This document shows, in pieces, positions 4,151 to 16,291 of a stretch of DNA of 43,486 nt. The stretch spans positions 1 through 43,486 of the forward strand of contig JASEFR010000006.1 of the NCBI GenBank assembly GCA_030019025.1, in the 5' to 3' direction. The stretch is from a bacterium. Its GTDB lineage: Bacteria > Hydrothermota > Hydrothermia > UBA1063. Below the pieces are notes generated by a model. The model saw nothing but the letters and a program-made list of their open reading frames with translations. It searched no databases and was not told the origin of the DNA. A program made the position numbers and the translations under genes. The number at the start of each line of letters is the position of its first letter. The first letter of the stretch is position 1.

Positions 4151-4220
4151 ACGGGAGTAGCTCAATGGTAGAGCATCCCCTATGCGGGGGATGGTTGCGG
4201 GGCGAGTCCCGTCTAAGGGT
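4151..4220 (+). pseudogene. Degenerate tRNA-Gly-like sequence
   Basis: The first half (GGGAGTAGCTCAATGGTAGA and on to 4177) is identical to the functional tRNA-Gly at 4245. The D arm is intact. The anticodon-arm helix TCCCC/GGGGA is fully paired, but the loop has only 6 nt (TATGCG). The T-arm helix is kept, but its loop has also lost one base and the TTC. The 3' acceptor strand reads CTAAGGG instead of CTCCCGC, so the middle of the acceptor stem cannot pair. It cannot be a normal tRNA. It could be a relic of a duplicated glycine tRNA, a sequencing artefact, or a tRNA-like RNA with another role. Confidence 0.7.
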
Positions 4221-4244
4221 TGAAAAAAAGTTCTTTTAAAATGT

Positions 4245-11292: not shown

Positions 11293-12450
11293 TTAATCCT
11301 CCAGTTTCAAAACCAAGAATATTGCTGTTATTTCAGTAAGCAGATGGCTTCCGCCGTAAGTGATAAAGGGAAGCGGAATGCCAACTACTGGAAGTAAGGA
11401 AAGATTTGACAGGATATTGACAGAAAAGTGAAAAAAGAAGTAAGCAAAAATGCCAGTTAGTATCAATTTTTCCTGGCCTTCTTTCAATTCTATTTTTCTA
11501 AGTAAAAAACTGAGAAAAGCCATAAAAGTAACAATTATAATAATAAGGCCTACAAAACCGAATTCCTCACCAATGCTCGTAAACATGAAGTCGGTGTGGG
11601 CAGCGGGTAGAAATGCAAGGCCTTTTTGAGTGCCTTTTCCGGGACCTTTACCAAAGATACCGCCAGAGCCTACGGCAATTTTTGCCTGGTATATTTGCCA
11701 ACCTTCTCTGCTTTTACTTTTTTCGGGGTTTAGAAAAGCAGTTAGCCTGTATCTCTGATATGGTTTTAACATTTTTTTCCATACAAAGGGTGTTGATAAA
11801 CTGACAACAGTGAGAAAGCTGATAGTTAAAATCTTTTTATACAACACCTCTTTTGAAATTAAGAGAAAAATCAATAGAGTTAAGAATAGGATAGTTGTTG
11901 AAAGTAAATGAGCGGAGGCTATCATGGTGATAGGGGTTAGAATTAGAAGTCTGGTAAGAAAGGGGTCAAGCCCTGATATCCAACTCATAAGAAAGGCGAT
12001 GAAGAGAAAAGTTAGAGCGGTCCCGAGATCTGGTTGAAGCATCACGAGAATAAAGGGAAATAACGTATATGCAAAGGCTTTAATCAACCTGATTTTTAGG
12101 GGCCTTTGGGTATTGGAGAGGATTTTACTTAATGCTAAAATAAGGCCAAGCTTTGCGATTTCTGAGGGCTGGAGTTGCATGAATCCAAGGTTTATCCATC
12201 GGTTAACTCTTCCTTTACCTGCTATTAAGACGATTATCAAGAGAATTAAGGAAAAGTAGTATATCAAATGTCCGTAATTGAGAATGTGTTCCTTCCTAAT
12301 GAAAAGAGAAATTGTAAAAAGAAAGACAGTAAAGATTAAAGCCTTAGAAAGTTGGGAAAAGAAGTAGGAGTTGTTGATAAAATATAACTCTAAAAGCCCT
12401 ATAGCGGTCAAAAATAAAGCGCTGGTGATGAGGACACTATTTCTTTTCAC
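11293..12450 (-). CDS. rodA: Rod-shape peptidoglycan glycosyltransferase RodA (SEDS family)
   Basis: RodA is the SEDS-family glycosyltransferase that polymerises peptidoglycan along the cell side wall together with PBP2. The 385-residue protein is almost entirely hydrophobic with about ten membrane spans. SEDS landmarks include GRVNRWINLGFMQLQPSE, the loop MLQPDLGTALTF, GSGGIFGKGPGKGTQ, LPAAHTDFMFTSIGEEFGF, and GIPLPFITYGGS near the C-terminus. It follows the PBP2 gene with a 14-nt overlap, as expected for its partner. Length is normal. RodA rather than FtsW is assigned from the mre context. Confidence 0.95.
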   Translation of the reverse strand: MKRNSVLITSALFLTAIGLLELYFINNSYFFSQLSKALIFTVFLFTISLFIRKEHILNYGHLIYYFSLILLIIVLIAGKGRVNRWINLGFMQLQPSEIAKLGLILALSKILSNTQRPLKIRLIKAFAYTLFPFILVMLQPDLGTALTFLFIAFLMSWISGLDPFLTRLLILTPITMIASAHLLSTTILFLTLLIFLLISKEVLYKKILTISFLTVVSLSTPFVWKKMLKPYQRYRLTAFLNPEKSKSREGWQIYQAKIAVGSGGIFGKGPGKGTQKGLAFLPAAHTDFMFTSIGEEFGFVGLIIIIVTFMAFLSFLLRKIELKEGQEKLILTGIFAYFFFHFSVNILSNLSLLPVVGIPLPFITYGGSHLLTEITAIFLVLKLED

Positions 12451-13354
12451 TCAACATCCTCCTTGCAATATTGATAGCTATTGGGGCTGCTGCTTCACTT
12501 CCGTGCCCCGCATTTTCTACAACAACAGTTAACACGTATGTGGGGTCATCATAAGGGAAAAAGCAAGTAAACCAGGAATGCTCTTTCCCGTGTGGGTTTT
12601 GCGCAGTTCCTGTTTTTCCAGCTATTTTGTAGGAAGGATCATAGAGATATCCCACAGTTCCTTGCGGGCTTTCAACGGTTAACCGCATGCCTTCTTTTAT
12701 GATGTCAAAATGTTCCAAAGGAAGATTTAGGGTAATATATCCGGTTTTCTCGCCTTTTCTTACTATTGGTTTAGCGCACCTCCCATTTCCAGCTATTAAT
12801 CCAGTTACTAAGGCCATCCATGCAGGGGTGACTTGGATTTCTCCTTGACCTATAGACCAGTTGATAACAGAACTTGGAAGGAGTAGTTTGTTCTTCATCA
12901 TCTTGGTAGTTGGAATTAGAATTGAATATTCGCCGATTAAGTCGATTCCGGTTTTTTCAGGTAAGTTAAAGTGGTCAAGGGTTTCTATGAAGTTCTGCGT
13001 TCCTATCTTTGCTCCAACATTATTAAAATATACGTTACACGATTGCGCAATTGCTTGGGTTAGATTGAGTGGGCCGTGTCCTTCTGTTTTCCAGCAAAGC
13101 CATGTCCTCTTTCCAAAGGTAAACCCCCCTGTACAGTAGAAAGTTGTTTGCTCACTTATCACTCCAGTGTATAAACCTACAAGGGCGGTAATGAGTTTAA
13201 AAGTTGAACCAGGTGGATAGAGTCCCTGTAAGACTCGGTTCAGTAAAGGTTTTTCCTTGTCCGAAGTGTAATAATTCCATTTAACGATAAGGCTTTCGGG
13301 GTTAAAATAGGGTTTTGAGTAAAATACCAATACTTCTCCTGTCTTGATGTTCAT
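12437..13354 (-). CDS. mrdA: Penicillin-binding protein 2, C-terminal transpeptidase part (gene split by in-frame TAA)
   Basis: This is the catalytic half of PBP2, the transpeptidase partner of RodA. All three active-site motifs are intact: STFK with the nucleophile Ser50 and Lys53 of this fragment, SCN at 105-107, and KTGT at 247-250. The frame is open upstream to 13381, directly after the TAA at 13384-13382, and the nine intervening codons read NYPRGAAFG, which resembles the conserved lead-in to this domain in PBP2. The N-terminal part is therefore in the same frame and only one stop codon separates them. The ATG at 13354 would give a protein without membrane anchor, so it is unlikely to be useful alone. 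Confidence 0.88.
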   Translation of the reverse strand: MNIKTGEVLVFYSKPYFNPESLIVKWNYYTSDKEKPLLNRVLQGLYPPGSTFKLITALVGLYTGVISEQTTFYCTGGFTFGKRTWLCWKTEGHGPLNLTQAIAQSCNVYFNNVGAKIGTQNFIETLDHFNLPEKTGIDLIGEYSILIPTTKMMKNKLLLPSSVINWSIGQGEIQVTPAWMALVTGLIAGNGRCAKPIVRKGEKTGYITLNLPLEHFDIIKEGMRLTVESPQGTVGYLYDPSYKIAGKTGTAQNPHGKEHSWFTCFFPYDDPTYVLTVVVENAGHGSEAAAPIAINIARRMLSEKK

Positions 13355-13381
13355 TCCAAAGGCAGCACCGCGCGGATAATT

Positions 13382-14095
13382 TTAAAATAAGGAGTCTAAT
13401 AAAGCCTGGATTTTTATGTCTATTGTTAGCAAGACCTCTTCGCCTTCTATTGGTTCTATTGGAGGTCGAGGATTAGTAGTTACCACATTCCCTCTTGAGT
13501 CTAAAGCAATGAATCTCGCGCCATCTTCTCCCCGCAGTAATAAATCGAAACTTCTTTCTACCCCGGCTTTTCCAATGAAATCCCCTGGGTCGAGATTGAA
13601 TTTTTTCACTTCATCTTTAGATGCTTCACCAACATAACCTATAAGGTGTGCGGCGTATTTGGCGTAAGGTGTGTAAACTCTTACTGGATCTGCGTCTATC
13701 ACGATACTTTTAATATTCGGCGATTTTTCCAGTAATTTTGTGGTTACTTCGTAAGAGAGATTTCCTTTAATCTCAATATAATTTCCTTTATGCTTCAGAG
13801 TGTCGGGATTAATTGTTAGATCTCCTAAGAGTTCTTTAAGAGTCACGTAGTCTTCATCTTTTAAAAACTTGGGTATTACCATCAGGCGGAAGGCTGGCTT
13901 CCAGTACGCAAGTAATACACCGTTCCTATCGTATATCTTGCCCCGTGGTGCGTGAATTTTATATTCTTTGAGAAAATTGTATGTTGCCTTTTGTAGGAGA
14001 GACTCATGCTCAATTATCTGAAATTGAAATAGCCTTATTACAATAATTACAGAGATTAACCAGAGTAAAGTTCGGAGAACGTTTACTTTACTCAT
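13382..14095 (-). CDS. mrdA: Penicillin-binding protein 2, N-terminal part (ends at in-frame TAA)
   Basis: This 237-residue piece holds the membrane anchor (about residues 7-25) and the PBP dimerisation/pedestal domain: the family signature APRGKIYDRNGVLLAY near residues 53-68, and YAAHLIGYVGEASKDEV and IGKAGVERSFDLLLRGEDG farther on. It ends ILLTID-type sequence (LLTIDIKIQALLDSLF) and a TAA at 13384-13382, where intact PBP2 proteins run on into the transpeptidase domain. The ATG overlaps the mreD stop (ATGA). With the following 12437-13381 frame it makes one gene of normal PBP2 length interrupted by a single codon. Mutation, read-through or a base-call error are the options. Confidence 0.88.
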   Translation of the reverse strand: MSKVNVLRTLLWLISVIIVIRLFQFQIIEHESLLQKATYNFLKEYKIHAPRGKIYDRNGVLLAYWKPAFRLMVIPKFLKDEDYVTLKELLGDLTINPDTLKHKGNYIEIKGNLSYEVTTKLLEKSPNIKSIVIDADPVRVYTPYAKYAAHLIGYVGEASKDEVKKFNLDPGDFIGKAGVERSFDLLLRGEDGARFIALDSRGNVVTTNPRPPIEPIEGEEVLLTIDIKIQALLDSLF

Positions 14096-14514
14096 ACTAA
14101 AAATGCTGTAATTATAGCTAAGGCAAGGGTTAGGATAAATTTAAACCCGATTGCCATCAAGTTTATGTTCCAGAATAAAGAGTAAATAACAAAGGATAAT
14201 GTAACAAAACTTGTTACGAAAATTAATTTAGCGGGCGCGAAGGTTAAATTGAAATTGCTCTTTGCCCAATTAGTTGATAGTGTTAGTACAGGAAAAACAA
14301 TTGGTGAGACCCAGATTTTATCAATATTGAATCCGTCGTGTACTAAACCGCTCAAAAATGCCCAGAAAAGCAAAGCGGGTGTCTCATATTTAAGGGAGAG
14401 ATATAGCAATGCAATTATAGAAATGTCAGGAAAAGTTTTAGGGAGTATGACCGTTGATGCCGAGGCAAGTATTAATAAAATAACGCCCGTGGTACTAATT
14501 TTTTGATTTTCCAT
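14092..14514 (-). CDS. mreD: Rod shape-determining protein MreD
   Basis: MreD is a small inner-membrane protein of the elongation complex. The 140-residue sequence has about four to five hydrophobic segments (for example ISIIALLYLSLKY, LLFWAFLSGLVHDG, LIFVTSFVTLSFVIYSLFW). The FLSGLVHDGF stretch in the second to third span is a typical MreD feature. It is slightly short for the family. It lies between mreC (20 nt overlap) and PBP2 (ATGA overlap), which supports the assignment more than the divergent sequence alone. Confidence 0.85.
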   Translation of the reverse strand: MENQKISTTGVILLILASASTVILPKTFPDISIIALLYLSLKYETPALLFWAFLSGLVHDGFNIDKIWVSPIVFPVLTLSTNWAKSNFNLTFAPAKLIFVTSFVTLSFVIYSLFWNINLMAIGFKFILTLALAIITAFLV

Positions 14515-15220
14515 AGATCACAACAATCCTTGAGGTAAAAGGCTTGAAGAACGGTTCGATTTTTGCTCTGTAAAAAATTGGATTATCAATGTCTTTCTGG
14601 TAGTTTTTCACCACACCAACTGGAGCGTAAGGCTTTGCATAACTTGAGAGTCGGGAAGTGTAAATTGTGTCTCCCGTGTGAATTTCTGCGTCAACGGGTA
14701 TGTATAAAACCATTGGAAATTCTCCGCCCTGCAGAATTCCTGTATAGTATGGATTGATTGACTCAACTCCCACTTTAAAGCTTTCGTTATAAATTGTTTT
14801 TATCCTGACTTGCTCTCCTATTTGCATTTCGACTTTCCCTATCAGATAGCCATTTAAATCAACAACGGTACCTTCAACTAAATCTCCTATTTTTTTAGAT
14901 TTAACTTTGACCAATATTTCCTCAGGGATTCCCATAGGAAAGTATTGAAAGATTTCTCCTATGAACGAATTGATTGATGTATCAACAACATTGTTTTCAG
15001 CAAAATCTTTACTATTGAGTTGTTCTCTTAGCCTTTGATTCTCAATGCTGAGTTGAATTGAACGCCTTTCTACGTTAGAGAGTAAAAGTAAGAGATTGCG
15101 TGTGTAAATGAAGGGAAAATAAAAGGATTTTGATAGCACTAATGCCACTTGCTCCTTTACGCCACTTATGTTAACGAAAATCGTTAGTAATAAAAACAAG
15201 ATAAAGAGTTTTTTCTCCAT
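14495..15220 (-). CDS. mreC: Rod shape-determining protein MreC
   Basis: MreC is a bitopic periplasmic scaffold that activates the PBP2-RodA pair. The 241 residues show an N-terminal membrane segment (FILFLLLTIFVNISGV), a coiled-coil stretch around residues 50-72 (RRSIQLSIENQRLREQL), and a beta-rich C-terminal domain with segments such as GTVVDLNGYLIGKVEM and the PYAPVGVV region before the end. The ATG immediately follows the mreB stop (TGAATG). The 3' end overlaps mreD by 20 nt. Length is at the short end of normal. Confidence 0.92.
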   Translation of the reverse strand: MEKKLFILFLLLTIFVNISGVKEQVALVLSKSFYFPFIYTRNLLLLLSNVERRSIQLSIENQRLREQLNSKDFAENNVVDTSINSFIGEIFQYFPMGIPEEILVKVKSKKIGDLVEGTVVDLNGYLIGKVEMQIGEQVRIKTIYNESFKVGVESINPYYTGILQGGEFPMVLYIPVDAEIHTGDTIYTSRLSSYAKPYAPVGVVKNYQKDIDNPIFYRAKIEPFFKPFTSRIVVIYGKSKN

Positions 15221-16291
15221 TCAATCGATAAAATCCGCTCTTTTAACCATTGTTTTAGAAGAAGCAGTTAACACTTGCTGGTATTTGTCTATGTTTTCCA
15301 ATATTTTCCCTGCTCCCAACACCACACAATGTCTTGGATTTTCTGAAACTTTCATGAGGATATTCGTTTCTTCCATAAGAAGATCTGGGAGTCCTTTAAG
15401 CAAAGATCCACCCCCTGTGAGGTAAATTCCTCTGTCTATTATATCAGCGACCAGTTCTGGAGGTGTCTGTTCCAGGGCTTTCTTTAATGCAAAGACGATT
15501 TCGTTAAGAGCAGTTCTTAGAGCGTTTCTGACCTCGGAGCTTGAGATTTCTATGGTTTTAGGCGTACCGCTTATGAGGTCTCTCCCCCTTACTTCCATTT
15601 TCTCCTCTGGATATGTAGGGAAAGCATTTCCAAGTTTAATCTTTATTTCTTCTGCTGTTTGTTCTCCAATTGCAATTCTATATTTTTCCTTTATATATGT
15701 TGCTATTGCTTCATCCATTTCATCTCCGGCAGTTCTTATGGATTTATTTACCACGATTCCAGAAAGAGAAATTACCGCAATCTCCGTGGTGCCAGCACCT
15801 ATATCTATTACCATATTTCCCACTGGTTCTTCTATAGGGAGTCCCAAACCTACTGCAGCTGCAACAGGTTCAGATACCATGTGAACCTTTTGAACACCAG
15901 CAAGTAGCGCTGCGTCTCTCACTGCGCGCCTTTCGACATCAGTAATTCCTGAAGGTACAGAGATTAAAACCACTGGTCTGATTAAGATATTCTTTTCCAA
16001 TACCTTGTTTAGGAAGTATATGATCATTTCTTGAACCATATCAAAATCTGCAATTACACCATCCTTCATAGGGCGTTTTGCCACAACCGTTTCTGGTGTT
16101 TTTCCAAGCATTTTTTTGGCTTCAATTCCACAGGAAATAATTTTACCAGTATAAAGGTCCATTGAAACCACTGAAGGTTCATCCAGAACTACACCTTTCC
16201 CCTTTACGTAAATCAGCGTGCTGGAAGTTCCAAGGTCAATAGCGATCTCATTTTTCAAAAAACTTATTAACCCTTTTAGGAACCGGAACAT
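15221..16291 (-). CDS. mreB: Rod shape-determining protein MreB (bacterial actin)
   Basis: MreB forms membrane-bound filaments that direct side-wall synthesis. The 356-residue protein has the actin-fold nucleotide-binding motifs: phosphate 1 IAIDLGTSSTLIYVKGKG near residue 17, phosphate 2 MVIDIGAGTTEIAVISL near residue 160, and the adenosine motif IYLTGGGSLLKGLPDL near residue 290. VLISVPSGITDVERRAVRDA is a clear MreB signature. A good AGGAGG lies within the end of mutS upstream of the ATG (16 nt overlap with mutS). It starts the mre block of the operon. Confidence 0.97.
   Translation of the reverse strand: MFRFLKGLISFLKNEIAIDLGTSSTLIYVKGKGVVLDEPSVVSMDLYTGKIISCGIEAKKMLGKTPETVVAKRPMKDGVIADFDMVQEMIIYFLNKVLEKNILIRPVVLISVPSGITDVERRAVRDAALLAGVQKVHMVSEPVAAAVGLGLPIEEPVGNMVIDIGAGTTEIAVISLSGIVVNKSIRTAGDEMDEAIATYIKEKYRIAIGEQTAEEIKIKLGNAFPTYPEEKMEVRGRDLISGTPKTIEISSSEVRNALRTALNEIVFALKKALEQTPPELVADIIDRGIYLTGGGSLLKGLPDLLMEETNILMKVSENPRHCVVLGAGKILENIDKYQQVLTASSKTMVKRADFID

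Follow-up and report, generated by a model that had tools for sequence, protein, structure and literature searches.

We describe here an mrdA gene whose frame for PBP2 runs for 552 codons to a TAG and carries one interruption, an in-frame TAA at codon 238. The window analysed is the initial 43,486 bases of contig C6, at whose end a 10-N scaffold gap starts, in a metagenome-assembled genome of the Caldifarciminota (WOR-3) that comprises 58 contigs and is 98.9% complete. We consider it probable, at roughly 0.6, that the TAA is an error of the consensus or the assembly, or else came into the metagenome assembly from a minority strain, and our best reading ranks this ahead of a very recent nonsense mutation, with read-through and a split protein lacking positive support. 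The TAA stands alone as a one-base difference in an mrdA that is single-copy, constrained and otherwise normal; we infer that this base is wrong, and the cells would then make an ordinary one-piece PBP2. The earlier note on this DNA announced that the gene is split, which is stronger wording than the evidence bears, although the options it listed (base error, recent mutation, two-piece enzyme, read-through) were the right set.

The interrupted gene and its operon

Translation of the minus strand from 14095 to 12437 gives 237 residues before the TAA at 13384-13382 and, with the frame unchanged, 314 more up to the terminal TAG. The N-terminal part (13385..14095, minus strand) contains the membrane helix, the pedestal domain and the first transpeptidase helix (predicted at 227-236), and matches the TIGR03423 pbp2_mrdA profile over positions 3-243 (E 8.5e-48, 163.3 bits). 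The C-terminal part (12437..13381, minus strand), which according to the translation, the profile and the predicted structure carries the rest of the transpeptidase domain, matches over positions 249-592 (E 2e-82, 277.7 bits). Single halves score below the profile cut-off of 455 bits, which is set for the unbroken protein, and because the two profile ranges adjoin, the halves directly follow each other in one protein that spans the profile and aligns at full length with 25 relatives. Translation and profile thus bear out the earlier description of a single in-frame TAA in an otherwise intact PBP2 frame. The catalytic motifs SxxK, SxN and KTG are intact, as also claimed there, in the forms STFK, SCN and KTGT, and S297, K300, S352, K494, T495 and G496 are invariant in the PBP2 alignment. 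What the gene does not have is a single unbroken frame. No further stop or indel was found in mrdA besides the TAA, whose surroundings contain neither a scaffold gap nor a long homopolymer.

The gene order along the minus strand is mutS-mreB-mreC-mreD-mrdA-rodA-glmS, and the rod operon has no breaks apart from that in mrdA. Family matches identify mreB (15221..16291), mreC (14495..15220) and rodA, encoding the partner glycosyltransferase (11293..12450); mreD (14092..14514) is assigned only by its position between mreC and mrdA, without a family match. All four are intact and on the minus strand. The locus therefore resembles the mrdA/PBP2 genes of TIGR03423 in its contiguous profile halves, its mreB-mreC-mreD-mrdA-rodA context and its catalytic motifs, but differs from them in the TAA at codon 238, which is present in none of the 25 aligned relatives. 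A search of the genome for a second PBP2, as the earlier note had advised, found none; the sole other transpeptidase match is an FtsI-like gene on contig C15 with 32% identity.

Origin and age of the stop

All 25 relatives that align through the site have a sense codon there. The three congeners have GAA (E), CAA (Q) and CAG (Q), with TAA one base away from both GAA and CAA, and the column is variable in the remaining relatives (L, A, I, R, K, S, E or P). Matches to the C-terminal half of PBP2 in the 59 other genomes searched contain no internal stops. The nearest congener, G003, has a PBP2 protein that is 83% identical, and because the relatives carry sense codons at codon 238, sequence comparison places the stop after the split from G003, whether it arose in the lineage or was introduced. 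The earlier note had reasoned that the same TAA in related genomes would support a real split or read-through; it is common to no relative, and since the sister genomes lack it, neither is supported. We saw no excess of odd residues that would hint at a bad stretch in this PBP2, with two deviations in 89 conserved columns compared to 0-7 in other genomes.

Both halves remain strongly and equally constrained against G003, with dN of 0.105 and saturated synonymous sites in the N-terminal part, and dN of 0.104 with dS of 1.77 in the C-terminal part; the stop is therefore either very young or not real. Neutral substitution of 5% predicts 4.2 more stops in mrdA, and none is observed (P of none 0.015), which together with the low dN indicates that the gene has been unconstrained for no appreciable part of its branch. 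A decayed pseudogene would show relaxed constraint and more disabling changes, and mrdA shows neither, so that the earlier view that the gene has not decayed holds.

A real nonsense mutation of very recent origin, whether fixed in the sampled population or still polymorphic there, is possible but in our estimation rather unlikely. It would look identical in an assembly, the TAA is a single base change from the congener codons, and a lone in-frame TAA in a conserved GGDEF-type gene of the G003 assembly implies that single nonsense changes do occur in assemblies of this group. Polarised amino-acid changes on this branch and the sister branch number 5:5 in the N-terminal part, 14:5 in the C-terminal part and 66:54 in six neighbouring genes, and the excess downstream of the stop would speak for such a mutation, but it is not significant relative to the neighbours (Fisher P 0.14; 0.40 for the whole of mrdA). 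Carriers of such a mutation would be without PBP2 or would survive without the rod elongasome. Against the mutation stand a low dN where synonymous sites are near saturation, the absence of further stops and indels, and intact mreB, mreC and rodA genes in a genome where a second PBP2 was not found. A literature search found nothing bearing on the mrdA stop.

Read-through and a two-piece enzyme as unlikely readings

If the stop were real and the cells still rod-shaped, we would have a remarkable example of read-through or of an essential transpeptidase in two pieces, and a working PBP2 made across a real TAA would represent a lineage-specific way to make an elongasome enzyme. We regard a real and fixed TAA with a working PBP2, made by either route, as very improbable. 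That a share of ribosomes decodes the UAA and so produces full-length PBP2 is as doubtful on its own account. It would agree with the continuous frame and the constraint on both halves, but no congener has a stop at codon 238, and a programmed site would be expected to be conserved in relatives. None of the 45 tRNAs above the cut-off has a UUA anticodon, and the RNA downstream of the stop folds like its shuffles (z 0.77), although near-cognate decoding could still occur in the absence of a suppressor tRNA or stimulating RNA structure. Among bacterial stops UAA generally allows the least leakage, and more genes in the window end in TAA than in either other stop (16 of 35 likely genes), in agreement with the earlier argument against a general reassignment.

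A degenerate tRNA-like sequence lies between tRNA-Tyr and tRNA-Gly at about 4152-4224 on the plus strand, with a good D-arm and a long G+C anticodon-like stem. The match to it, at 4156-4214, scores 28.9 bits with the Rfam tRNA model, below the cut-off, and the sequence folds more stably than its shuffles (z -2.8). We rejected it as a suppressor, as its loop contains no UUA anticodon and ARAGORN does not call it.

The slightest prospect of all is a true two-piece PBP2, in which the N- and C-terminal parts are made separately and then assemble. The two pieces adjoin on the same strand, and the first ATG past the TAA, at 13354-13352, is 10 codons downstream and 27 bases from the stop. A structure model in which codon 238 was given an amino acid (mean pLDDT 83.9, pTM 0.79, 10 sequences) places it in a loop joining helix 227-236 to strand 243-249, so that the stop would fall in a loop and at a variable column, as might suit a split. 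However, we take this helix and strand, from what PBP2 structures generally show, to be transpeptidase-domain elements, and the predicted cut would thus lie within that domain rather than at a domain boundary, leaving helix 227-236 on the N-terminal piece. The next AUG, at codon 248, lies within strand 243-249 in the model, the C-terminal piece would lose most of that strand, and a two-piece enzyme is unlikely for this reason. By eye, we saw nothing like a ribosome-binding sequence suitably spaced ahead of codon 248. Relatives show no split at codon 238, and solved homologue structures align across the site.

Broken genes elsewhere in the assembly

An error, or a minority variant, is favored because similar small changes break several other genes of the assembly. 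We set 1.21 Mb of this 1.73-Mb genome, about 70%, against the G003 open reading frames (1.22 Mb), a census covering 607 orthologue-like genes and 226,495 aligned residues. Away from N gaps, seven broken genes turned up here in addition to PBP2. Five of them carry a one-base indel: HemW (C2:47566), a Nudix hydrolase (C2:48172), a presumed M14-like peptidase, named by our reading of the sequence (C2:53866), a bacteriohemerythrin (C2:108873) and a 1086-residue protein (C4:51208); a TPR-like protein has an in-frame TAG (C3:17694), and an M23-like peptidase gene is multiply broken by two stops and a frameshift (C17:8340-8542). The 10-N scaffold gaps break three more genes. Individual checks of HemW, the Nudix hydrolase and the TPR-like protein showed uninterrupted genes in each of the three congeners. 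The mrdA stop resembles the one-base gene breaks and pseudogene calls of metagenome assemblies in that an isolated one-base difference disrupts a conserved gene, with at least seven others here, but differs in being a substitution, whereas one-base indels account for five of the other seven. That the other breaks are mostly indels counts against an error, as does a site free of scaffold gaps and long homopolymers, and some of those breaks could be real mutations. In favor of an error are a stop that is unique to this assembly and one base from GAA or CAA, and a rod operon that is otherwise intact.

In this assembly a small change away from scaffold gaps disrupts roughly one orthologue in 75, so a lone interrupted housekeeping gene should not be equated with biology unless reads or a relative sharing the break support it. 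HemW and the Nudix hydrolase are neighbours (C2:47510-48240), both broken within about 600 bases, and this region looks like a poor consensus stretch on that account. The short M23-type peptidase gene (C17:8270-8800) is unbroken in G003 and may be a true pseudogene here. The reverse comparison, for breaks in G003, gave four apparent shifts and one clear isolated stop, namely the TAA in the GGDEF-type gene at C1:790013, where this genome encodes glutamate (C6:64634-65776). Several census matches were dropped as antisense or spurious open reading frames, tRNA regions, or extensions upstream of the real start. We also discounted a candidate break at C4:63423 that reflects a gene fusion found in one genome only: genes that we read from their sequences as presumably flavodoxin-like and flavin-reductase-like are separate here (C4:63390-63480) and form an in-frame fusion in G003.
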